A stretch of DNA of 36,299 bases from assembly GCA_013138805.1 (NCBI GenBank), contig WTCA01000003.1, positions 1 to 36,299 on the forward strand, given 5' to 3'. Numbering within the stretch: the first letter of the stretch is position 1; each line of letters begins with the position of its first letter. The translations under genes were made by a program, and so were the position numbers. This stretch comes from an archaeon. Lineage in GTDB: Archaea > EX4484-52 > GLR71. Under the pieces are notes generated by a model. That model had not been told where the DNA came from and made no database searches. It saw only the letters and a list, made by a program, of their open reading frames with translations. Of the stretch, positions 7,089-36,297 are shown piece after piece.

Positions 7089-8140
7089 ATGGATAATTCT
7101 GATAAAGCTGTCGAGACTAGATCAGATGGGTATAATCATCTGCTCAAAGATGTGAAATCTATACTTGATATGGGCATTTCTGGTGCGTATAAAGCAGTTG
7201 ACAATATCAAGGTGCAGACATACTGGCAGATAGGAGAAAGAGTTGTGAGGGAGGAATTGCAGCATAAAGATAGGGCTGATTATGGGCATAAAATAATAGA
7301 ACAATTGGCGGCAGACTTGTCATTTTCAAGACGGCTAATGTTTGAAATATTACAATTTTACAGAGAATATCCAATTGTGCATACACTGTGTGCACAATTA
7401 AGCTGGAGCCATTATAGGCTGTTAATTGCGATTGGAAGAAAAGAAGAACGTCTATTTTATGAGACTCAATCTGTCAGGAATATGTGGGCAGTCAGAGAGT
7501 TACAAAAACAAATACATAGCAATCTCTATAACAGGATGAAAAAACACAGAAAGCTGAGCATACCTATACCTATGCAGTCCAAGACCTATATGCCGGAAGA
7601 TGTCTTCAAGGATATATATCATTTTGATTTTCTTGGACTTGAGAAGGGGTATGATGAAACAGAACTTGAGAAAGGTCTGATATCTAATACAGAGAAACTG
7701 CTTCTTGAATTCGGTGCTGACTTTTCAGTTTCAGGAAGACAGAGGAAAGCTATCATTGATGGACAGGTACATGCTGTTGATATTGAACTATACCATAGAA
7801 GCATACCATGTATCGTTCTTGTTGAACTGAAAGTAGGAAGATTTAAAGGCGAGTATATTGGTCAAATGAATAAGTATTGTCAAAGCCATGATATCAAATG
7901 AATTGCTTTGCCATATACATCAAGGCATATTATTTGCCTTGAGTATATCTTAACTGGTATAAGGAGAATAAAAAGCATTCCTGGGAGAAAGATCCGATCG
8001 GGCTTATCATATGCAGGAATAAAGGGAAAGAAGAAGTTCATTATGCGCTTGGCGGCATAAGCAACAAAATCTTTGTTGCTGAATATAAGATGAAATTACC
8101 TTCAGGAGAAGACATCAGAAGAAGATTGAGTGATAATTAA
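7089..8140 (+). pseudogene. DUF1016/YhcG-type (PDDEXK-like) nuclease, disrupted
   Basis: ORF 7089-7901 has the N-terminal wHTH-like half and the nuclease segment (FLGLEKGYDETELEKGLISNTEKLLLEFGADFSVSGRQ...VELKVGRFKGEYIGQMNKY). The family C-terminus (YLNWYKENKKHSWEKDPIGLIICRNKGKEEVHYALGGISNKIFVAEYKMKLPSGEDIRRRLSDN) continues in another frame at ~7943-8140. Confidence 0.85.
7878..7948. repeat. Approximately 65-71 bp insertion with two hairpins inside the nuclease gene
   Basis: Lies between GQMNKY and YLNWYKEN codons. Hairpins CAAAGC...GCTTTG (7881-7910) and CAAGGCA-tattatt-TGCCTTG (7921-7941); flanked by agtat (7873-7877, 7942-7946). Confidence 0.7.
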
Positions 8141-14998: not shown

Positions 14999-16639
14999 TT
15001 ACTTCTTTTTCCCTTTATCTTCCAAAACCCTTACACAATCCTGACCTTCAATCGGTGTTCCTCCGAACTCTTCCATCAGGTTGCCTGTTATTGTGAGAGG
15101 AATGGTTTCTCCCATCTCATCTGTAAGGGTTAGTGCAACAACTTCCTGAGTGTCGAACTTAAGCGTCAGATCCATGAAACCGTCGCCGTTCAGGTCATGG
15201 CAGTCGCAAAGCTCTCCCTCGAATGGTGTGGCAACATCTTCGTAGTTCCAACGGACCGGAGCTACTCCATCCGTCCCGGGGTCAAGTTTTATCCGGATTG
15301 AAGCCGGGTCAATTGTTGTGACATCGAAGTCATATGTGCCAAGAACTGCTACAGGCAGTACACCTTTGCTCTTTGTGTTGATCGGGTTAGGGCAGGAGCT
15401 GGGTTTTATATCGACAAAGACCGAAATCATCGGAGTCTCAGGAGACGACTTCTCAAGAGTTAGAAGAGCCCAAGTTGTTATGATAGTCGGGTTTCCTCTC
15501 CCTTCTGAAGAAGATATCCATGAACCGTCTGCCTCTTGCTGGGCAACAATCACATCAGAGAAGTTCTGATACCAGTCTATGCTGTCAAACGTGTCTATGC
15601 CCATATACTCAAGGCCTTTCATGGCAGTGAACATCGCCTGATATTGTGCTGGATCACCTTTCCATCCAGGTGGCTGATTATTTCCGCTTGCATCATCCCA
15701 GTGCCTTGCAAGATAGTCTGTAGCGTCAGTAACCCGTTGTGCGTCAGGCGCATCACCTACAAATGCCATCTCAAAGATGAGATTTCCGGTCTTAAGGATA
15801 TTGGTACCTATAAATATACCTGTATCGCCAATGTTGCGGTACCATGAACCTCCGTCATTTTCATCACCATTAACAGGATCCTGGATGCATCCTATAAATG
15901 CATTCAACTCAGTTTTTACCCATTGAGGTACTGTGCTTCCGAAATCCTCTGCATAAGACAGACCAAGAACGGCATATCCTGTGTTGGAGTTGTCAGGCAC
16001 AGTATTGGAATTGTCAAGCGCCCAGTAATACCATCCACCTTCACCACAATCATTATCACCTGTGTAATCATAATTGTAGTCTGATTGTGCATAAGCAAGC
16101 CAGTCAACCATATCCTGCGCTATCTGTGCCTGTGTCATGCCATCCACCACCGTATTAGGTGCATTAACCACTCTTTCAGGCAATCCGCAAACAGATAGTG
16201 CTGAAAGTCCTATACCTGTAGTATATGAGTTGTAGCCAGACATATAGATACCTACTCCGTTGCCGTTTGAGTCAGGATCATCTATCATTCCTGAAGCCCC
16301 TGCAGTATGGTTCTGAAGCGATAAATCAACAACAGACATCCTGCTATAGAGGTAGTTCAATCCTGCCGTAACATTGGAACTGTATATATAGTCCGGGTCG
16401 TAAGGGTCCAGCCCCTGCTCTTTTGCATACTCGCACAGTTTCAGCAGTGCAAGACCTGTGGTTGCCTCATCCCCATAATAATCAGGCCAACTTCCGTCAC
16501 CTTCCTGGTCGTTTGCCAGCCATTCCAATCCCATCATTATGGAATTATTTATCTCCACTTCTGTGGCTGCACTAACAACTGTTACAGAAGATAAAATCAA
16601 AACTGCAGCCATAGCTAAAGCTAAAATTAATCGTTTCAT
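14999..16639 (-). CDS. Secreted alpha/alpha-toroid (prenyltransferase/squalene-oxidase-repeat-like) protein
   Basis: Signal peptide MKRLILALAMAAVLILSSVTVVSAA; repeats of QEGDGSWPDYYGDEATTGLALLKL / GGWYYWALDNSNTVPDNSNTGYAVLGL / QEADGSWISS. C-terminal DIKPSSCPNPINTKSKGVLPVAVLGTYDFDV domain with DLNGDGFMDL. Confidence 0.75.
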   Translation of the reverse strand: MKRLILALAMAAVLILSSVTVVSAATEVEINNSIMMGLEWLANDQEGDGSWPDYYGDEATTGLALLKLCEYAKEQGLDPYDPDYIYSSNVTAGLNYLYSRMSVVDLSLQNHTAGASGMIDDPDSNGNGVGIYMSGYNSYTTGIGLSALSVCGLPERVVNAPNTVVDGMTQAQIAQDMVDWLAYAQSDYNYDYTGDNDCGEGGWYYWALDNSNTVPDNSNTGYAVLGLSYAEDFGSTVPQWVKTELNAFIGCIQDPVNGDENDGGSWYRNIGDTGIFIGTNILKTGNLIFEMAFVGDAPDAQRVTDATDYLARHWDDASGNNQPPGWKGDPAQYQAMFTAMKGLEYMGIDTFDSIDWYQNFSDVIVAQQEADGSWISSSEGRGNPTIITTWALLTLEKSSPETPMISVFVDIKPSSCPNPINTKSKGVLPVAVLGTYDFDVTTIDPASIRIKLDPGTDGVAPVRWNYEDVATPFEGELCDCHDLNGDGFMDLTLKFDTQEVVALTLTDEMGETIPLTITGNLMEEFGGTPIEGQDCVRVLEDKGKKK

Positions 16640-26281: not shown

Positions 26282-27661
26282 TTAATACAAAAAAGATTGC
26301 GGCAAAATCTTTTCTGAAAACTCGCCTGCAAGGTTCTTGAGCATCAGGTCTTTTATCTCCTGCTTATCCTGAACTCTTCCAAGGATGCAGCCAAGTTTGA
26401 CATAGGCGGTTTCGGGAAGCATATCCTTAGCAAAGATGACTCCTATTTTTTCCATCTCTACTGCACTTCGGTATACATGAGGATGTGTGGAGCCGTACAA
26501 GGTCTGGGATGCGCTCACAATCGTGACACTTTCATCTGATGCGCGCTCTAATGATTTTTTCCAGGACATATTCTTATCCAGAGGATCCATAGGCACATGA
26601 CCCAGGGCTGTTGTCTGCAGGACTACCCCTTTGTATCCTTTGTCTATGTGCCAGTCAAGAATTTCAGGGCTTATGCCAGGATGGATATTTATCATCGCAG
26701 TCTTTGCCTCAAATCTTGTGTCTGCCAGGACATCAAGGCTGTTGTCTCTTTTCCTGTGATTGCTGTCTATTATGTCAAGCTTGCCGCAGGGATATACTGT
26801 ACCTATAGGCTGTGTATTTATTGGCCGGAATGCATCTCTTCTGGATGTGTGCATCTTCCGCACTTTCGTACCTCTGTTTATAAGGCAGTAATCGTCGTTC
26901 ATTGTTGCGTGCATGACAACTGCGACCTCGGCAATATTACATGTTGCGTATCTTGCTGCGCATATAAGGTTCATTGCGCCGTCAAAGCTTGCGCGGTCAG
27001 GAGACCTCTGGGCACCTACAAGAGCTACCGGCTTGCTGAGATCCGGTAACATGAAAGACAGGGCTGCGGATGTATAGTGGAGAGTGTCTGTGCCATGGGT
27101 GACTATCAACCCTTCTATACCTCTGTTGAGCTCTTTTTCTGCAAGTTTTGCCAGCTTTGCCCATTCTTTTATTGTCATATCCTCGCTTGCCATCCTGAAA
27201 GGCGAAAGTATGGATGTAAGATTGATTATGCTTTTAAGCTCGGGCGTTGTCCTCAGAATCTCTTCAGGTTCCATGAGCATGTGCACTGCACCAGTCTTAT
27301 AGTCTACCCTTGAAGATATCGTGCCGCCTGTTGCAATAAGGGATACTTTCGGCTTTTTTCGGTCAAAGGAAAGGATGCCTTTGCTTTTTGATTTGCCAAG
27401 CTCGAGTTTTTCCTCAGAAATTATGTCATCCTGCGTCTTTTTTCCGGATTTGGATATTGCTGTCTTTTCAGTCACAAGAATACCAGTATTATATCCGCTG
27501 TCCAACTTGAGCGTCAATATGTCTTCTGCGCTGTCGTCTGTCCCGGGCATGAGAATGCCTTCAATCTTTATCTTTCCGTCTGCGACTGCAATCCTTGTAC
27601 CTACATCGATGCTTTTCGATTCAAGAATTTTTTTCAGTTTTCCAGCGTACATAAATATCAA
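26282..27661 (-). CDS. gatD: Glu-tRNA(Gln) amidotransferase subunit D
   Basis: PKVSLIATGGTISSRVDYKTGAVHMLMEPEEIL, GLIVTHGTDTLHYTSAALSFML, GAQRSPDRASFDGAMNLICAARYA. Confidence 0.95.
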   Translation of the reverse strand: MIFMYAGKLKKILESKSIDVGTRIAVADGKIKIEGILMPGTDDSAEDILTLKLDSGYNTGILVTEKTAISKSGKKTQDDIISEEKLELGKSKSKGILSFDRKKPKVSLIATGGTISSRVDYKTGAVHMLMEPEEILRTTPELKSIINLTSILSPFRMASEDMTIKEWAKLAKLAEKELNRGIEGLIVTHGTDTLHYTSAALSFMLPDLSKPVALVGAQRSPDRASFDGAMNLICAARYATCNIAEVAVVMHATMNDDYCLINRGTKVRKMHTSRRDAFRPINTQPIGTVYPCGKLDIIDSNHRKRDNSLDVLADTRFEAKTAMINIHPGISPEILDWHIDKGYKGVVLQTTALGHVPMDPLDKNMSWKKSLERASDESVTIVSASQTLYGSTHPHVYRSAVEMEKIGVIFAKDMLPETAYVKLGCILGRVQDKQEIKDLMLKNLAGEFSEKILPQSFLY

Positions 27662-27676
27662 ACCTTATGAATTTTT

Positions 27677-28840
27677 CTATTCCGAACCTTTTAAATATAT
27701 AAGCAATGATTTCCCTGAAATGTTAAGCTCTTCTTTCAGCTCATCTTCTGTCTTTGAAGCAAGATCAAAATAGTTCTGCTCAAAGACGCCTGTTATTGTA
27801 GTGGTCACGCCAAGAAGCGTCGCAGGTGTGATGTTATAGGAATAGTATTGAGACAGTGCATTGGTGTAATCGCCTTTATGTATATATACTTCAAAAGTAG
27901 ATGCGTTGACAGTTATCGTGTCTGCATCAATATCTGCCGTGTAATCTGTCAGGTTGCCTATTATGGCGATTGCACCCTTCCTTTCAAGCCCGCTGGCAGA
28001 AGGGTCAACAAGAGGACCATTGTAAAAATCTATTATTGTTATGTTGTTGACAGGGTCATTGTTTGATTCTATATAGAAATTATTGAAATTCTTAAGGTCA
28101 AAAGTGACTGTCTCATTTGTGTCTATGAAGAACTTGGTGGAGTTTACGACAACCCTGACTGTTGTATTTCCGTATATTGCTTTTCCCTCAAGTGATCCGT
28201 TCGTGAAATTGAAGGGGCCTGCTGTAGATAATGTTATGCCTGTACCTGTAAGCTCTTTCTCCTGCGGGGCGCTTAAATCAGGATGATAAATATAAGATAA
28301 TTCCTTGATACCGCCTGTGTCAAAATATAATATCATATTATCGGTTGATATATACTTGTCTGTTGTTCCGTTTATGACATCAAGACCTTTATATACATAT
28401 TTGGATAGGTCTGTGCCTTTAAGGTAAGTGAGATAAAAAGTATTTGGAGGATTTGTTCCGGTGGTGTTGGTCAGGTCAGAGTACCATCTTAAAGTATTTG
28501 TTCCGTTATCGAACTCACTGGGTATCGGGCTGCCGTCAACATATGTTATAGATATTGAATTTATGTCTATCTCCTGAGATGGTGTGAAGTTTATCATTAT
28601 CAGGGTATCACTGACATTCACAGGATTATCTACAAATACAGGAGTCTTATAGATAGTGACAGAAAGACTGCCTTCTATCTTTTCATATATATTTTTTGCT
28701 TCGGCTTTCAGGGAGGATTCAAAAGGTTTTTTAGGCATCAGCTCGGACTGCACGACCATAAAAGTCAATACAATAGCAGATATGAATATGACAAGAGCCA
28801 GAATGCTGCCAATCTGCATCTGTCCTTTTCTAATAGACAT
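27677..28840 (-). CDS. Pilin-like N-terminally anchored surface protein
   Basis: MSIRKGQMQIGSILALVIFISAIVLTFMVV: RKG/Q site followed by a hydrophobic helix, then a Thr/Asn-rich beta-type ectodomain. Confidence 0.65.
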   Translation of the reverse strand: MSIRKGQMQIGSILALVIFISAIVLTFMVVQSELMPKKPFESSLKAEAKNIYEKIEGSLSVTIYKTPVFVDNPVNVSDTLIMINFTPSQEIDINSISITYVDGSPIPSEFDNGTNTLRWYSDLTNTTGTNPPNTFYLTYLKGTDLSKYVYKGLDVINGTTDKYISTDNMILYFDTGGIKELSYIYHPDLSAPQEKELTGTGITLSTAGPFNFTNGSLEGKAIYGNTTVRVVVNSTKFFIDTNETVTFDLKNFNNFYIESNNDPVNNITIIDFYNGPLVDPSASGLERKGAIAIIGNLTDYTADIDADTITVNASTFEVYIHKGDYTNALSQYYSYNITPATLLGVTTTITGVFEQNYFDLASKTEDELKEELNISGKSLLIYLKGSE

Positions 28841-28862
28841 AAAAATACCTTTGAAACTTATA

Positions 28863-30110
28863 TCATAACAGCTTAATCAGGACATCAGTCAGCCCTCCAG
28901 AAACACCCATATTCTTCACGAGAAGATTATAAGCGCCTGCCTGAAGCTTTACCGATGTCTTGTTTTTAGAGGCATCCGCATATAAGCTTATAGAATCATA
29001 ATCCAGTGTCAGGCGTATCTTATTTTTGGTGTCTATCCCGAAACCGAAACTTGGACTGTACAGATTTTCGAAAGTTCTGTCATTGATGTAATGGATCCTG
29101 TCTGCGATTGTGCCATCCTGTCCGCTGGTGAACACAAGATATATCTTGTTTATCTTGAACGGCTGATTGAGATATATCATGTTTGATGCACTCACTTCTC
29201 CTGTCACCGCGTCATTGTCTGACACAATGGCAAGGACTGTGCCCGCTGTTGCGGACTCTATATATTTTTTTGAATAGTCAAAATCTGATGTTGGTGTCAC
29301 GAAATTTGTGCTTACCACATTGGTCTCAACCCAGTCAAAATACTGAGGGCTTATGACTCTGATCTTGACATAATCTGTGCCGGACTCAAGTATGAAATGT
29401 ATTTCATACTCTATTGTGGAATAGTTGAGATATGCAATAATCTCTGCTGCGCCAAGATTATCACCAAGTTTTTTTGCATCAACATACCCTGTTACCATTT
29501 CAGGTATGCCTGTTATGCTAAATTTTATGTGGTCTAAGACTCCTGAGAAAAGGGTCTTTGAATCATCCTTGAGATATATGTTTTTCAAAAGCTTTGATGT
29601 GTTTATAGCCACATGATCTGTTGAATTTCCAGAGTTGTTGATGTAGACCATGAGGTGCTCATTTTCTAATATGAAATCTGTCGTATTTGCGCCGGCAGAG
29701 ACATTTGTGTTTGAGCTGAAAGTTATATCACCTATCTTTCTTGACGCTCTTGGAGATACTGCCAGGGAATCTGTCTCAATCTCAAAATATAATTTGCCAT
29801 AATCACTTTCAGATATATTTGCTGAATCTATAGTGAATGTGCCTTTACTGAACGAAAGGGGAACTACCCTCTGGGAACGTTCGCTTTCCTGAGCAACAAG
29901 CTCTATATACTGGTTCAGGTAATTCATAGACTCCTGTGCGCTGTCAATGACTACTGTATCCCTGACATCATTCAAGGACGGTATTATGCCGCCCATGATT
30001 ATGGATGTCGTCGTTATTATTATCGCTGTAAATATTACGCCTGAAAGGAGAGGGCTGATGCCTTTCTTTGTATTTGCTACCTTTATCCTGCATGTTTTGC
30101 ATCTATCCAT
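28863..30110 (-). CDS. Pilin-like N-terminally anchored surface protein
   Basis: KVANTKKGISPLLSGVIFTAIIITTTSIIMGGIIPSLND: KKG/ISPLLSGVIF resembles archaeal pilin H-domains. Extra CKTC at the N-terminus. Confidence 0.65.
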   Translation of the reverse strand: MDRCKTCRIKVANTKKGISPLLSGVIFTAIIITTTSIIMGGIIPSLNDVRDTVVIDSAQESMNYLNQYIELVAQESERSQRVVPLSFSKGTFTIDSANISESDYGKLYFEIETDSLAVSPRASRKIGDITFSSNTNVSAGANTTDFILENEHLMVYINNSGNSTDHVAINTSKLLKNIYLKDDSKTLFSGVLDHIKFSITGIPEMVTGYVDAKKLGDNLGAAEIIAYLNYSTIEYEIHFILESGTDYVKIRVISPQYFDWVETNVVSTNFVTPTSDFDYSKKYIESATAGTVLAIVSDNDAVTGEVSASNMIYLNQPFKINKIYLVFTSGQDGTIADRIHYINDRTFENLYSPSFGFGIDTKNKIRLTLDYDSISLYADASKNKTSVKLQAGAYNLLVKNMGVSGGLTDVLIKLL

Positions 30111-30180
30111 CTGACATCACTCATTGCCGGCTCTTAGTTAAAGGTTATGATATTAATTGTCGCCTCTCAATTAAATACAT

Positions 30181-30276
30181 TTATTATGCATCTCATCATA
30201 CATCTCATAATACTTCCCATAATACTTCTCATCGTACATCTTATAATATTTCTCATAATATCTCTCATCATCTCAG
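30181..30276 (-). repeat. 12-bp minisatellite, about 8 degenerate units
   Basis: Plus-strand units: ttattatgcatc tcatcatacatc tcataatacttc ccataatacttc tcatcgtacatc ttataatatttc tcataatatctc tcatcatctcag. Confidence 0.85.
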
Positions 30277-30869
30277 CTGTTCTCAACAAGATTTACCCAA
30301 AGGTCCTGCTGTTTCCCCAGCTCAAGCTCGAACACCTCAAATACTTTTCGTGTCGTGTTGAAAGCTATCGGTGAATCAAGCTGTGCGAAATTTATAAGCA
30401 CAGTTATGTTTTCAGAGCCACCGAACACTGAAGAGAAATTCAGTGTAGATTCCGTCCAGGGACCGAGTATCGTTATGTTCCGGCTCTGTGTACCTGTTGA
30501 ATTTGTGATATTTATCTCTATGCTATCAAGAGAATACTGCCTGAAGTTGCCTACAGTTATGTTAAGGTCATCACCCCGAGGCAGGCCTAGAATATAATAG
30601 CCTTCAAGATCCAGGTTATGGTTTTTTGAATATGTATCAAGGAAAACAAAAAAGATGTGCATCTTATCCTCTATGTTTGTGGAATCGGCGCTGTCTGCCA
30701 CAATAACGTTCACGACATAATTGAGCTCAGATTTCATGTTGGTGAACATGTACTGCGTCCGGTCAAGCTCTGCTGTCTGCGAGGGGTACATGAACCGTGA
30801 TGCTAATATCAAAGATGTCATGAATATCAGCACTGCAACGCTTATTATGTAAAACTGCCCTTTTCTCAT
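30273..30869 (-). CDS. Pilin-like N-terminally anchored surface protein
   Basis: MRKGQFYIISVAVLIFMTSLILASRF: RKG/Q site plus hydrophobic helix. Open frame continues 33 codons past the TGA to TAA at 30171-30173. Confidence 0.65.
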   Translation of the reverse strand: MRKGQFYIISVAVLIFMTSLILASRFMYPSQTAELDRTQYMFTNMKSELNYVVNVIVADSADSTNIEDKMHIFFVFLDTYSKNHNLDLEGYYILGLPRGDDLNITVGNFRQYSLDSIEINITNSTGTQSRNITILGPWTESTLNFSSVFGGSENITVLINFAQLDSPIAFNTTRKVFEVFELELGKQQDLWVNLVENS

Positions 30870-30872
30870 AAC

Positions 30873-31268
30873 TTACCACATATATATCAAAAAGACTGTT
30901 GGATCGTATTTATATTCATATCCTGAGACGACATAGCTGAACACATAGACGCTTTCATTATCAGGTATGCCTCCAAACAGGATGCTGTCTGTGTAGTTTG
31001 TGTAACCGACAGTATATTGGTATGTCGGAGGCAATAGAGTCTCAAGAGAATCTGAGAAACCAGTAAGATTTTTCGGATCCGATACGGCAAATTCCCTCAA
31101 CTGATTTGACTTGTCAAGGAACTCATATACCCCGTAAACAGTCTTCACAAGTGCCGGTGACTCTTCTCTCTGCCCTGTGTTCATGGCTGCGACAACAAGA
31201 AAAGATACAAGCAATACTGCAGCAAGCGTCGCTTCAAGTATTCTCACATTGGCTTTCCTTATCATCAC
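30873..31268 (-). CDS. Pilin-like N-terminally anchored surface protein
   Basis: MMIRKANVRILEATLAAVLLVSFLVVAAMN: RKA/N site, Glu near +6, hydrophobic helix. Confidence 0.65.
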   Translation of the reverse strand: MMIRKANVRILEATLAAVLLVSFLVVAAMNTGQREESPALVKTVYGVYEFLDKSNQLREFAVSDPKNLTGFSDSLETLLPPTYQYTVGYTNYTDSILFGGIPDNESVYVFSYVVSGYEYKYDPTVFLIYMW

Positions 31269-31278
31269 ACACAGACCC

Positions 31279-34200
31279 TTAATTTATTGTTGTGCCGACT
31301 GATATATACTGTATGCTTGTCCTTCCGAAACGATCTATCACGATCATCGGAACCTGGACTGTCGATATATCTTTTGCCTGAGTATCCATATATATACCAT
31401 AAAGTGTTGATTCCACGCTGAAAGACAGTATGTCTGAGACTGTCCTGTCACTCAGCTTATCTTCTGTATATGTCTCCTCCCATACATACACTATCTCTAC
31501 TTTCTTTGCACCTGTAGGAATCGTATTGTTAATGAAATATGTGCAATAGACAGTGCGGTTTGAAAGGATAGGCAAGATATCGTTTTTCTGAGGCATTGTG
31601 CAGTTCATATCTATAGCAGGATTATAGCTGTTCAGGTATCTGTCAAATATCTCTGCCCTGACATCATAATCAGCTGTTATGTTCATATTGCCCCTGTTGA
31701 TTATAGTGCCATTCAAGAGTATCATATCATCACCCTCATATTCTGTGCTGTTCAAGGTGACATTGAACCCAGCCCATGGATCGTTCAGAATGGTGAGGTT
31801 GACTGTGGTGTTAATGATGCCAACATTGCACAGGCTGCTGTTCCAGCTTACATTTATAGGGAAAGAATAATTTCCTGGCGGCTGGGTGCGCACAGATGAA
31901 ACTGATATGTTGACTGTATCGTTTTCGCCGGAAGATATGTTTGATATGATTTCAGAATTTCCTATGTTCCACAAGGTTGTGTCCCATATATCATAGGCGC
32001 TGTCTGAATCATCTGCCTGCCCGACAACGACAGTTATGCCTGCAACATCCGTACTGGCATTGAGCGTTACAAAGAACAGTGATTCTGTCAAAGTCTTGAC
32101 GCTATCGGGGGCAGATATCGCAGATACGTTGACATCATCTGCCATAGCTACCGGCGCATATACCAACTGTTCCTGGCTGAAATGACAGGATCTTGAAGCT
32201 GTCGTATCCATAGTTACCCCAACACAGCCGTTTGCCTCGCAGATGAATTCATACCACTGTTCTGTCGCGTTCCAGGATAAGGTTCTTGGACCAACACAGT
32301 TAACACCGCCGCCAGTCATGTCTGCTGTAACAGTGGCTCCTGATATGTTGATATTGTCCATAATGTTCTCATAATTGCAGTAGAACATGAGATGAGTCCA
32401 GTTTGAGATTATCCAGCAATCAAGAGATGTTAAAGTGGGTGATACTGTTATATTGTAACCTGGATCCACCAATACTGAATCAGCTACCTCGTGCAGGTAG
32501 GAGTGGGTTGACTCTGTCCATACATGCCATGTTGACACTTCATCTATGCAGCTTATGTTGAATGTGGTGTTCGCTTCGCCGTTAGTTATAGCAGCCATAA
32601 TGTTCAATGGTATTGATGCCTGAGAGGTATGGCTTTCGTTGTGGAGCTCGAAATAAGTTATGCCAGAGTATATGTTGCTGTCGTTGCCGGGATGACTTAC
32701 ATTGTTGGCATAGTCTGCATAGAGGATGAATGTGACATTATTGTTGGAGTAATATATCTTCCCGAAATCTGTTGTGTTGTATGTTATGCTTATGTCGTCT
32801 ACACTGAACAGGTCTGAGTTGTTCCCATAGTCGCTTGTCTGGTATATCAGACCGTCATATACTCTTACTTTTACATCTATAGGACCCAGCTCCTCATCAG
32901 TCATCGTATCGGGCGGGTTCCATAGGCAGAATCCGACCCATTGCTTGAGGTTCGCTGATGTCCTTGTGCAGTTTTCTGTTATGTTTATTATGTATTCATT
33001 TCCTGTGTCGTCTCTCAATGACATGTTTGTGATGTTCAGGACGAAAGGAATGCCTGAAGATTCATCAGGGTCTGTGATATTTATAGATATGTTTGCTATC
33101 TGATAGGATCCGGAATTCCTGTCTGTAGGGTCAGGTGATTCCAGCAGTGTTATGTTGGGATACTGGTTGAGGTATACAACACCAGACCAGCCTGTTGACC
33201 TGTTCTCGTAGAATTGCTTTGATGAGTTCACAGAAAGGTTCCAGTAGCCGTTAGGGTCTGAAAGCTGGAAAGTGTATGTCGCTGTATAAATTCCGTCAGT
33301 TTCCGGATCGCTGAAGGACAGGATGTGATTGGTATTGTCAGAGTCTGTCAGATATCCTGTCATTACGGCACCGGATATATTGCCTTCCGGTGAGTGGTCT
33401 GATGTCAGATATACGTTTACTGTTACAGTCTCGCCGGGGTTGTATATTTCACCATTGGGTTCCTGCCTATTGTTGTAGAGAGCGCCCCTCACTTCCATCG
33501 TGCTGTTAGGGATACCGTCATCATCATAGCAGCCGTTGCCTCTTAACGCTGTGGCGTTTATTGTACAGTAGCCAGGTTCGCCAAATACAGAGTAATAATA
33601 GTTATCATACGGGTCTATTGTGCAGTTGAAATGGCCTGCTGAGGCATCCCAGGTGCAGTTCTGATCTGCGATGCATGCTCCGTATATTGTTATGTTGGCA
33701 TTGCTTGTGGCACCATCTGAGTCATTGACTGTGATGTTTACATAGCCTATGCTTGGTGCATAAGCTGTTGTCCTGTATATCAGGGCAGGAGTTTCAACCA
33801 TAGTTATTTCAAGCTCGCCCCTGTCGAATGTGACATTCGCTATTGTGTCATCAGTATCTATATCAAGATGACCTATTTCATTGGCGATACATGAAAGGTT
33901 GTATAATTCTCCACATTGCATTGTAGTCGGAATGGAGCAGTTGCCTTCACCATATCCTGTCCAGGTGCAGTATTTATCTGCGGTTGTCGGGCATGAGTTA
34001 ATATTTTCTGAGTTGCCGGGATTGCAGCCGAAGAAACAGTCCACCTTTATGTTCTCTGCAGAATTACCAGAATACAGGGTCGCGTTGAATATAGGTGTTG
34101 CTGTTGTAGTGTTTCCTCCAATCTCAATAAGTGTCAGGTTCACCTCATCATAGCACATAACATTTGAATATTCAAGGCTGCCGTGCTCGCCGTCAGGAGG

Positions 34201-36297
34201 CGATGCTGTGTATGTGTCTGAATTGTGGTCCCAGTCTGTCCTTGGATAACTGCCGACAGAGTTTGAGCAGCCGAAGTCATCCCAGAACATATCCATCAGG
34301 AATGTATATTGGTAAGGTATTGTGAAGACCTGGTTTGGTGCCCACAATGCAGGGAATGCTGATGAGCCGTATGCCTGCGTGGGCTGTACCCCTATATTAA
34401 TTCTGAACAGACCATCCATATCTGTGCCGGTTATCGGCAGTGTTCCTGTGTTGTTCATAGTTGCTTTCATCCATAAGGTGTCGTTAACATCTATGTCAAA
34501 CTGCGCGCTGCAGTCTGTCTCAGATATGTTGACTTCTGTGTCGGAATCCTGCACTATGCAGCCAAGAGATATGGTTGTATAGTTTACTGTGAAGTTTGTA
34601 TAGGCGTCAAAGTCTGTATCTATATTTGGATAACCTAATCTTTCAGCATTGCAGTATATCGTGTTCTCGCCCCGGGTCAGGTTTGGTGCAGGTATCATGC
34701 AGGTCTTTTCATTACCCTGGGAGCCGCTGTATGTGCAAGTGTCTGCTGTGCAGGACTCTATCCTCGGGTTGCAATTAAGGGCGCATGTGACATTGACCAT
34801 ATCGTCAGAATCTATGCTGACATTGAATATCGGGACCAAAAGAGATGTGTTTCCGACCATAGAGACCACAAGCTGTGTTATGTCGTCCACGTCAAACTGG
34901 TAAAGTGATGTGGTGTTGCAGTAGCTGAGACTGTCGCATGCGCGTATGTAGTAGTCTGTGTATGATGCTCCGGAACCGTCAAGTGTGTCTGTCGTATATT
35001 CGCAGGACTTGGCGTTCAGTGTTGTATTGGTGCAGAATGTGGCTGAACATGAAGGATCTTTGCATGCCGAGAAGTTCCAGGTGTCTGCATCTTCAGGTAT
35101 GTCTGAGTCAGAGATGTCTGCGCTGAATGTGAAGGTCTCGCCAATTTCAAAGACTGCTATTGATGGCGGCGATACATTTGAGATGTTGGGCTTTTCATTG
35201 ACATGGACTGTTCCTGTATAGTTCGCCAGATCATAATTTACCTTATGGACAACTGCGATGTATGATATATTCTGGTAGCTGTTCGGTGTGCAGGTGAAAG
35301 TGTAGTTTCCGTCACCTTCATTAGTCATAGCCTGCATAGAACCCTGGCAAGATGCGCCGCCGCCTGAGACATTTATGTATTTTGTTGCGGCCCCGTCCAA
35401 CATGTCGTTTCCGCAGAATGTCTCACTGTAAGCGCATGTTATGTTGAGCTGTGTGCCTGTGTTGATGGGGCTTGCCTCTTCTGTGCAGACAAGCTCTGTC
35501 GGCCTTGTCATGACTGTGATCTGGCAGTTGCTGTTGTCGGTGTCATCAATTGTTGAGCCCTGTCTTGTTGTGCTTCCGCTTACGTTTAAGTGATATGTTG
35601 TTGTTACAGGAACAAAGGTTGGAGTGAATGAACATAGTGTCTGGCCAGTTGAGTTTATGGTGTTGGTGTAGTTGGTGTAGATTAAATTATCTGATGAATT
35701 CAAAAGCTCACAGTCTATATTTCCTCCAGATACTGTGAGGGTGTGTGATGTGTTGAAATATGTTGATACTGTGAATTCTATCTGTGTGTTGCCGCATATT
35801 GACTGGCCGCAGTTATCGTAGCTGAAGTATATATCTTCACCGCAGGCAAGAGTACTGTCATCCCTCTGCCTTGAAAGGCCGTAATTGTCTGTTGCATTGG
35901 TTGTTATGTTTATGCATGTGATGCTGTTTTCGTGTCCGAGGTTGCGGCTGTATGTATATGTGTAACTGTCTATTGTCTGGTAATATGACATTGCATTGAA
36001 GCCGGACCATCCGGACAGGTTCTGCTTGTCCTCTATCACTGAGGCTATGTCAGATGCGCTGTCATAGTCTGTGACATTGAGATATAATATGAAGTTTTCG
36101 GTGAGGTGGTCAATGTCTATATATTCTATAGACTTGTTGTTTATATTGGGTGTCTGGAGCAGGAGTGGATTGCAGTATATGTCTCCTGTTGTGTTTGACT
36201 GTGTCGGATTGACATAGTATTGCTTTGTTGCATCTGCTGTTATGTTCAGATCCATGCAGTCTGCAGGCAGGTTTGAATTGTTCAGGGTGCAGTTCAT
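31279..36297 (-). CDS. Giant Cys-rich, sequon-rich surface protein (N-terminus outside window)
   Basis: 1672 aa open frame reaching the window edge; repeated beta-type domains, many N-x-S/T sequons and paired Cys. Confidence 0.8.
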   Translation of the reverse strand: MNCTLNNSNLPADCMDLNITADATKQYYVNPTQSNTTGDIYCNPLLLQTPNINNKSIEYIDIDHLTENFILYLNVTDYDSASDIASVIEDKQNLSGWSGFNAMSYYQTIDSYTYTYSRNLGHENSITCINITTNATDNYGLSRQRDDSTLACGEDIYFSYDNCGQSICGNTQIEFTVSTYFNTSHTLTVSGGNIDCELLNSSDNLIYTNYTNTINSTGQTLCSFTPTFVPVTTTYHLNVSGSTTRQGSTIDDTDNSNCQITVMTRPTELVCTEEASPINTGTQLNITCAYSETFCGNDMLDGAATKYINVSGGGASCQGSMQAMTNEGDGNYTFTCTPNSYQNISYIAVVHKVNYDLANYTGTVHVNEKPNISNVSPPSIAVFEIGETFTFSADISDSDIPEDADTWNFSACKDPSCSATFCTNTTLNAKSCEYTTDTLDGSGASYTDYYIRACDSLSYCNTTSLYQFDVDDITQLVVSMVGNTSLLVPIFNVSIDSDDMVNVTCALNCNPRIESCTADTCTYSGSQGNEKTCMIPAPNLTRGENTIYCNAERLGYPNIDTDFDAYTNFTVNYTTISLGCIVQDSDTEVNISETDCSAQFDIDVNDTLWMKATMNNTGTLPITGTDMDGLFRINIGVQPTQAYGSSAFPALWAPNQVFTIPYQYTFLMDMFWDDFGCSNSVGSYPRTDWDHNSDTYTASPPDGEHGSLEYSNVMCYDEVNLTLIEIGGNTTTATPIFNATLYSGNSAENIKVDCFFGCNPGNSENINSCPTTADKYCTWTGYGEGNCSIPTTMQCGELYNLSCIANEIGHLDIDTDDTIANVTFDRGELEITMVETPALIYRTTAYAPSIGYVNITVNDSDGATSNANITIYGACIADQNCTWDASAGHFNCTIDPYDNYYYSVFGEPGYCTINATALRGNGCYDDDGIPNSTMEVRGALYNNRQEPNGEIYNPGETVTVNVYLTSDHSPEGNISGAVMTGYLTDSDNTNHILSFSDPETDGIYTATYTFQLSDPNGYWNLSVNSSKQFYENRSTGWSGVVYLNQYPNITLLESPDPTDRNSGSYQIANISINITDPDESSGIPFVLNITNMSLRDDTGNEYIINITENCTRTSANLKQWVGFCLWNPPDTMTDEELGPIDVKVRVYDGLIYQTSDYGNNSDLFSVDDISITYNTTDFGKIYYSNNNVTFILYADYANNVSHPGNDSNIYSGITYFELHNESHTSQASIPLNIMAAITNGEANTTFNISCIDEVSTWHVWTESTHSYLHEVADSVLVDPGYNITVSPTLTSLDCWIISNWTHLMFYCNYENIMDNINISGATVTADMTGGGVNCVGPRTLSWNATEQWYEFICEANGCVGVTMDTTASRSCHFSQEQLVYAPVAMADDVNVSAISAPDSVKTLTESLFFVTLNASTDVAGITVVVGQADDSDSAYDIWDTTLWNIGNSEIISNISSGENDTVNISVSSVRTQPPGNYSFPINVSWNSSLCNVGIINTTVNLTILNDPWAGFNVTLNSTEYEGDDMILLNGTIINRGNMNITADYDVRAEIFDRYLNSYNPAIDMNCTMPQKNDILPILSNRTVYCTYFINNTIPTGAKKVEIVYVWEETYTEDKLSDRTVSDILSFSVESTLYGIYMDTQAKDISTVQVPMIVIDRFGRTSIQYISVGTTIN

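Follow-up and report, generated by a model that had tools for sequence, protein, structure and literature searches.

A five-gene cassette at the end of an archaeal contig

The DNA analysed here (hereafter the window) is a whole contig of 36,299 nucleotides, contig C43 of the source genome G000 (1.33 Mb, 103 contigs, ~93% complete), and our subject is a cassette of genes at one of its ends, in which a giant surface protein is encoded together with four small pilin-like proteins, P1 to P4. A preliminary description made from the window alone had noted five consecutive open reading frames (ORFs) on one strand; all five are present on the minus strand, where they are read in the order giant, P4, P3, P2, P1. 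The genes of the cassette, their notable parts and the neighbouring gatD are as follows.

26282–27661, minus strand: gatD, a conserved downstream neighbour that serves as a synteny anchor and is no part of the pilus
27677–28840, minus strand: P1, a predicted minor pilin of 387 residues with the motif RKG|QMQIGS, a helix and a large beta head; remote homologue, by profile, of DUF7287
28863–30110, minus strand: P2, a predicted modular minor pilin of 415 residues with the motif KKG|ISPLLS; the pilin part (residues ~1–260) is, by profile, a remote homologue of DUF7289
28887–29267, minus strand: P2C, the C-terminal domain of P2 (residues 282–408)
30273–30869, minus strand: P3, a predicted minor pilin of 198 residues with the motif RKG|QFYIIS; weaker match (63.7%) to the third gene of the euryarchaeal sets
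30873–31268, minus strand: P4, a predicted minor pilin of 131 residues with the motif RKA|NVRILE; remote homologue, by profile, of DUF7288
31279–36297, minus strand: giant, at least 1672 residues, Cys-rich and sequon-rich, its 5' end lost at the contig end; proposed tip adhesin
31291–32937, minus strand: C-terminal 550 residues of the giant, homologous to the giants directly upstream of P4 in genomes G029 and G033
31297–31374, minus strand: P1-like tail at the extreme C-terminus of the giant (residues 1642–1667, KDISTVQVPMIVIDRFGRTSIQYISV)

The gaps between the genes measure 22 bp (P1/P2), 162 bp (P2/P3), 3 bp (P3/P4) and 10 bp (P4/giant). The longest of them contains, at 30174–30268, a tandem array of a 12-bp repeat (~8 copies, consensus AATACATCTCAT, with a 36-bp period as an alternative), which is unusual for an otherwise tight operon. 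Homologues were sought in 100 genomes. The relatives carrying the P2 family are labelled Candidatus Nanohaloarchaea, Aenigmatarchaeota, DPANN group or 'archaeon', and nearly all are metagenome-assembled; the source archaeon, which is uncultured and probably host-dependent, is accordingly most likely a member of the DPANN group.

P1 to P4 are pilin-like proteins

When the window proteins were compared with Pfam and NCBIfam, nothing but GatD scored above cutoff. The four class III-type signal motifs proposed in the preliminary description (RKGQMQIGS, KKGISPLLS, RKGQFYIIS and RKANVRILEA) are nevertheless conserved in the orthologues: Lys stands at position −2 in 17 of 20 members of the P1 family, 20 of 22 of P4, 24 of 24 of P3 and 22 of 22 of P2, and position −1 is Gly or Ala without exception in the four families. 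A strict class III filter passed 3 of the 27 window ORFs of at least 120 residues, namely P1, P2 and P3, and only 1 of 45 on three other contigs of the same genome. P4 fails this filter because of its charged residues R+3 and E+6, the latter being an invariant Glu in the P4 family; the window copy (131 residues) is also shorter than most of its orthologues (~225 residues). A chance origin of the class III motifs is not plausible. For the processing of such signals, the prepilin peptidase domain PF01478 was found above cutoff on contig C23 of the source genome; PF06847 was sought and not found.

AlphaFold2 models, which cover P1 and P2, have a pilin-like architecture. In the P1 model (predicted local distance difference test score, pLDDT, 80), helices at residues 10–34 and 40–59 precede a beta-rich head, and in the P2 model, which is of moderate confidence only (pLDDT 67), a single helix at residues 20–74 does so. 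Together with the conserved motifs, these models bear out the idea that the small proteins are pilin-like, and we regard the assignment of P1–P4 to the type IV pilin-like proteins as well supported. An archaellin identity was dropped because no archaellin family matched and because the cassette is linked to machines that contain no archaellum parts.

Both heads weakly match beta-supersandwich domains, namely those of polysaccharide lyases and GH38/GH81 and the periplasmic domain of YidC, which leads one to ask whether they have one unusual fold in common. We do not claim kinship of P1 or P2 with the carbohydrate-active enzymes or with YidC from these Foldseek matches, which are weak (best target-normalised template-modelling score 0.59).

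The quartet is conserved and has euryarchaeal counterparts

The four pilin-like genes recur in a conserved order in relatives of the source archaeon and in distant archaea. The preliminary description thus withstands two of the checks that it set itself, those for synteny in relatives and for pilin-like models (here of P1 and P2). Homologues of P1 lie almost entirely within the taxonomic order of the window, and those of P2 and P3 in that order plus a few distant genomes. The usual layout within the order is giant, P1, P4, P3, P2, often a small pilin, and gatD, with neighbouring genes often overlapping by a few bases. The sequence P1-P4-P3-P2 occurs in 20 genomes from at least six families: nine genomes belong to the window's order (some cut by contig ends), two (G149 and G175) represent two other families, and nine, some of them with intervening genes, fall into two families with larger genomes.

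These families could be connected with uncharacterized Pfam domains through their members. DUF7289 is matched by 13 of 22 members of the P2 family (best 8.4e-10), DUF7288 by 6 of 22 members of the P4 family (best 2.1e-6) and DUF7287 by a single P1 member out of 20 (0.0012); the window's own P1, P2 and P4 stay below the curated Pfam cutoffs for these domains. In G160, which appears to be euryarchaeal, DUF7287, DUF7288, DUF7261, DUF7266 and DUF7289 are encoded consecutively, and in G040, which likewise appears euryarchaeal, DUF7287, DUF7288, a third gene, another small gene and DUF7289 adjoin ATPase and TadC genes. We compared the DPANN families with these euryarchaeal genes in a profile–profile matrix (hhalign), in which the gene sets were picked by position and some were already known to match the DPANN profiles weakly. 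The diagonal of the matrix reached 94.5% for P1, 94.8% for P4, 95.5% for P2 and 63.7% for P3, whereas off-diagonal pairs reached at most 36.9%, and these low controls argue against matches arising from mere common pilin features. By profile comparison, therefore, P1, P4 and P2 are remote homologues of DUF7287, DUF7288 and DUF7289, respectively, and P3 is a less certain candidate for the counterpart of the third gene in the euryarchaeal loci. DUF7289 is found in Haloferax volcanii and Methanosarcina acetivorans, and DUF7287 and DUF7288 in H. volcanii; no paper naming any of the three was found in the literature outside subscription journals.

The giant protein is tied to the pilins

Counts confirmed that the giant is Cys-rich (55 Cys in 1672 residues) and dense in N-x-S/T sequons (86, against ~34 expected from composition). 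A search with the contig end found no overlapping contig in the assembly, so that the sequence of the giant lacks its N-terminus.

Three lines of evidence connect the giant with the small proteins. First, its last 550 residues are homologous to the giants whose genes immediately precede P4 in G029 and G033 (E ~1e-24), the G029 homologue bearing a laminin-G (LamG) domain. In these cases the giant fills the slot before P4 that is otherwise taken by P1; no separate P1 was seen in G029 or G033, and in the window P1 has shifted to the end of the cassette. Second, the tail of the three giants taken together matched the tail of the P1 orthologues (hhalign 87.9%, E 3.2e-6), both being extreme C-terminal, with P2, P3 and P4 as negative controls. 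In direct comparisons with a hidden Markov model, the giants of G029 (4e-9) and G033 (1e-8) matched strongly, the window giant on its own being marginal (0.0058, whole ORF). Third, P2C is fused to a pilin only in G000, G002 and G007; in other relatives it forms the C-terminus of giant proteins or is part of a small protein with a signal-peptide-like N-terminus.

The giants beside or near the cassettes of relatives carry DUF2341, immunoglobulin-like (Ig-like), beta-helix or laminin-G domains, none of which scored above cutoff in the visible part of the window giant. In G001, a DUF2341 giant adjoins the cassette in a place equivalent to that of the window giant, and DUF2341 is a PilY-type domain according to PMC4858521. 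A DUF2341 protein of at least 839 residues in locus L084 (G026:C121, 7239–9755) starts with the class III signal KKAVSPLISV and is apparently a pilin fused to a giant adhesin.

Pilus machines linked to the cassette

As the preliminary description stated, the window contains no pilus ATPase or platform gene; the source genome nevertheless has such genes on contigs C15, C52 and C33. In G007, from a sister genus, the genes for an ATPase, two T2SSF platform proteins and four small pilins are followed on one strand by P4, P3, P2, P1 and gatD. G011 has its P1 after small pilins and two TadC-like proteins, and its P4-P3-P2 on a separate contig between a giant and gatD. The cassette is contiguous with an ATPase and TadC-like platform genes in G007 and G040, and partly so in G011 and G089.

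Contig C15 of the source genome lacks the quartet but encodes an ATPase together with two platform proteins and five small pilins, and its ATPase is the best match in this genome to that of G007 (53% identity, against 40% for C52). A C15-type ATPase accompanies quartet members in G089 and G040, the ATPase of G040 showing only a slight preference for C15 (41%) over C52 (39%). From the G007 layout and the similarity of the C15 ATPase, we conclude that a machine for the cassette exists and is most likely the C15 system, the operon having been split in the source genome.

The other two contigs hold machines of their own. C52 (L103, G000:C52, 3–12821) carries a second one, accompanied by separate genes resembling P1, P4, P3 and P2 and by a giant (at least 1032 residues) that is encoded convergently; this locus adjoins a thermosome/GroEL-like gene and thereby resembles locus 1 of PMC11291902. 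C33 (L104, G000:C33, 5803–14905) carries a third ATPase with two TadC-like proteins, and a small protein with the class III motif RKGQSATEYL is encoded ~3 kb downstream.

Other features of the window

A 546-residue, secreted-looking protein is encoded at 14999–16639; by eye, its N-terminal part resembles alpha/alpha-toroid (terpene-cyclase-like) repeats, and no Pfam match was obtained at E up to 0.001. A protein of the DUF1016/YhcG-type PDDEXK nuclease family is encoded at 7089–7901, in what is a small DPANN-like genome.

A candidate minor-pilin complex displaying a giant adhesin

We propose that the cassette probably encodes the minor-pilin initiation or tip complex of an archaeal type IV pilus, which displays the giant as an adhesin. 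The prepilin peptidase would trim the class III signal peptides of P1–P4, whose N-terminal helices would then pack in the membrane as a starter complex. The C15-type ATPase and the TadC-like platform proteins would add small major pilins beneath this complex and push it outward, so that it would end at the filament tip. There, the giant would be held by its C-terminus, through the tail in common with P1, through a P2C-type domain or through both, and its large N-terminal part would project from the tip and bind either a partner cell or a surface. A role of P1–P4 in initiating the filament and in holding the giant at the tip is suggested by analogy with bacterial type IV pili (T4P), in which a tip complex made up of four core minor pilins is assembled first and is capped by PilC/PilY1 (PMC10191384), and for which complementation between PilX and PilY1 by a C-terminal beta-strand has been predicted (PMC13190605). 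The preliminary description had the four small proteins presenting the giant from either the tip or the base. Its linking of the two is upheld by the position of the giant next to P4, its P1-like tail, the presence of P2C on P2 and the DUF2341 domain of the G001 giant; for a place at the tip rather than the base we rely on the bacterial analogy.

Several observations weigh against this proposal. In the source genome the cassette stands apart from the C15 machine. Most relatives of P1 have Asp at +5, where the window P1 has Gly and is without an acidic residue, and the window P1 also lacks the C-terminal tail found on most of its orthologues. The equation of P3 with the third-position proteins (DUF7261) is the weakest of the four (63.7%, E 6.7e-5 over 123 columns, off-diagonals at most 4.9%). 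In a Pfam scan of the visible 1672 residues of the giant, whose N-terminus is cut off, no DUF2341, PilY1 propeller or lectin domain scored above cutoff.

A first alternative is that P1–P4 are minor pilins seated at the base or along the shaft of the pilus and that the giant is a surface-layer (S-layer)-like protein merely co-expressed with them. The window giant is sequon-rich, and sequon richness is common among archaeal surface proteins. Taking the archaellum as their analogy, Makarova et al. (PMC4858521) assigned minor pilins to the region of the base, and they listed S-layer-like proteins in several T4P loci. However, the giant and the P1 orthologues have a tail in common, giants stand in for P1 ahead of P4 in G029 and G033, and a giant-type C-terminal domain is fused to P2, so that the tie between giant and pilins exceeds co-expression; in addition, no C-terminal membrane helix was seen in the giant. 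We consider this alternative unlikely.

A second alternative, to which we give still less credence, is that the cassette forms the pseudopilus-like component of machinery that takes up DNA or releases proteins instead of mediating attachment, with the giant as a binding component or a substrate. In Methanococcus maripaludis, transposon insertions in a DUF2341 gene and in several epd pilin genes abolish natural transformation (PMC10133366), and DNA import has been proposed for DPANN pili (PMC9563170). The giants by the cassettes, however, bear domains of kinds that typically bind surfaces (Ig-like, laminin-G and beta-helix), and DNA uptake and attachment are not mutually exclusive. Finally, that P1–P4 are unrelated single-span membrane proteins with a coincidental motif would fit the absence of Pfam and NCBIfam matches above cutoff among them, but is very improbable and already disfavoured by the conservation of the motif, the synteny with T4P machines and the family-specific matches to an ordered euryarchaeal set.

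Beyond the proposed tip complex of this one archaeon, we tentatively raise a broader possibility, to which we give rather less than even weight: P1-P4-P3-P2 may be a core complex of minor pilins that is widespread among archaea and ancestral to many of their T4P, and that would start assembly and cap the tip as bacterial PilHIJK do. In DPANN archaea, giant adhesins might dock onto this complex through a C-terminal tail or domain that passes between adhesins and pilins, and the tips used to recognise hosts would thereby be interchangeable. If the four-gene order does represent a general archaeal core complex, pilus initiation and tipping would become testable in tractable archaea such as H. volcanii, which has DUF7287, DUF7288 and DUF7289.

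DPANN archaea have pilus ATPases but pilins that are hard to find: the nanohaloarchaeal genomes studied in one paper were reported to contain Tad-type clusters and no annotated pilins (PMC9563170), and for one ATPase clade the cognate pilins eluded identification in nanoarchaea (PMC4858521). The cassette is a candidate for such a pilin set and provides a physical connection of pili to the giant surface proteins presumed to mediate contact with hosts; the recurrence of the quartet suggests how such archaea build and arm their pili.

Comparison with known systems

The likeness to bacterial minor pilins (PilHIJK, FimU-PilVWX and GspHIJK, together with PilC/PilY1) is one of organisation and proposed mechanism only. 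In both cases four minor pilins are encoded with a large non-pilin surface protein, and modular pilins with grafted domains, comparable to P2, are known among the bacterial proteins; no sequence homology was detected. The bacterial core minor pilin families in Pfam were matched neither by the window proteins at E up to 1 nor by their relatives at E up to 0.01, and the sequence matches of the P2, P3 and P4 profiles in PDB included no pilins.

Related symbionts likewise combine giant surface proteins, the SPEARE proteins, with two T4P loci in Nanohaloarchaeum (PMC6642349, PMC11291902), and, according to a 2024 study of Nanohaloarchaeum antarcticus, a pair of T4P loci occurs across DPANN lineages (PMC11291902). 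Unlike SPEARE proteins, the window giant has no protease, restriction-enzyme or LamG domain in Pfam and no C-terminal membrane anchor, and the published Nanohaloarchaeum loci stress coiled-coil proteins, not the P1–P4 quartet.

Among archaeal systems, T4P loci with minor pilins and large DUF2341 PilY-like adhesins have already been modelled (Makarova et al. 2016, PMC4858521). The Methanococcus and Thermococcus loci of Clade 1 (epd and DUF2341) resemble the cassette in having several minor pilins beside large DUF2341 proteins proposed to be PilY-like, comparable to the DUF2341 giant of G001; they differ in that the machine of the cassette is related to a different set of ATPases and in that DUF2341 was not seen in the window giant.

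The closest likeness is to the euryarchaeal Clade 2 T4P (Haloferax PilB3/PilB4 type, PMC4858521), which, like the system of the cassette, comprise an ATPase, one or two TadC proteins, small major pilins and several larger pilins. The signature minor pilin of Clade 2, arCOG02911, is an all-beta protein of ~250–550 residues that is often duplicated (PMC4858521); P2, which matches DUF7289, agrees with this account, the two having been compared by description only. The term 'undescribed appendage' used in the preliminary description is not supported. Since archaeal T4P loci have already been described (PMC4858521, PMC11291902, PMC9563170) and loci combining minor pilins with PilY-like adhesins are known (PMC4858521), the cassette is a divergent variant of the pilin set that accompanies euryarchaeal pilus ATPases and not a new appendage. 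What appears to be undescribed, in the same body of literature as above, is the ordered four-family module across DPANN and euryarchaeal-type genomes, together with the swapping of C-termini between pilins and giants. Compared with Clade 2, the DPANN cassette is more divergent, lying below the Pfam cutoffs in its own genome, and the window adds the giant, its P1-like tail, the fusion of P2C to a pilin and the altered order P4-P3-P2-P1.

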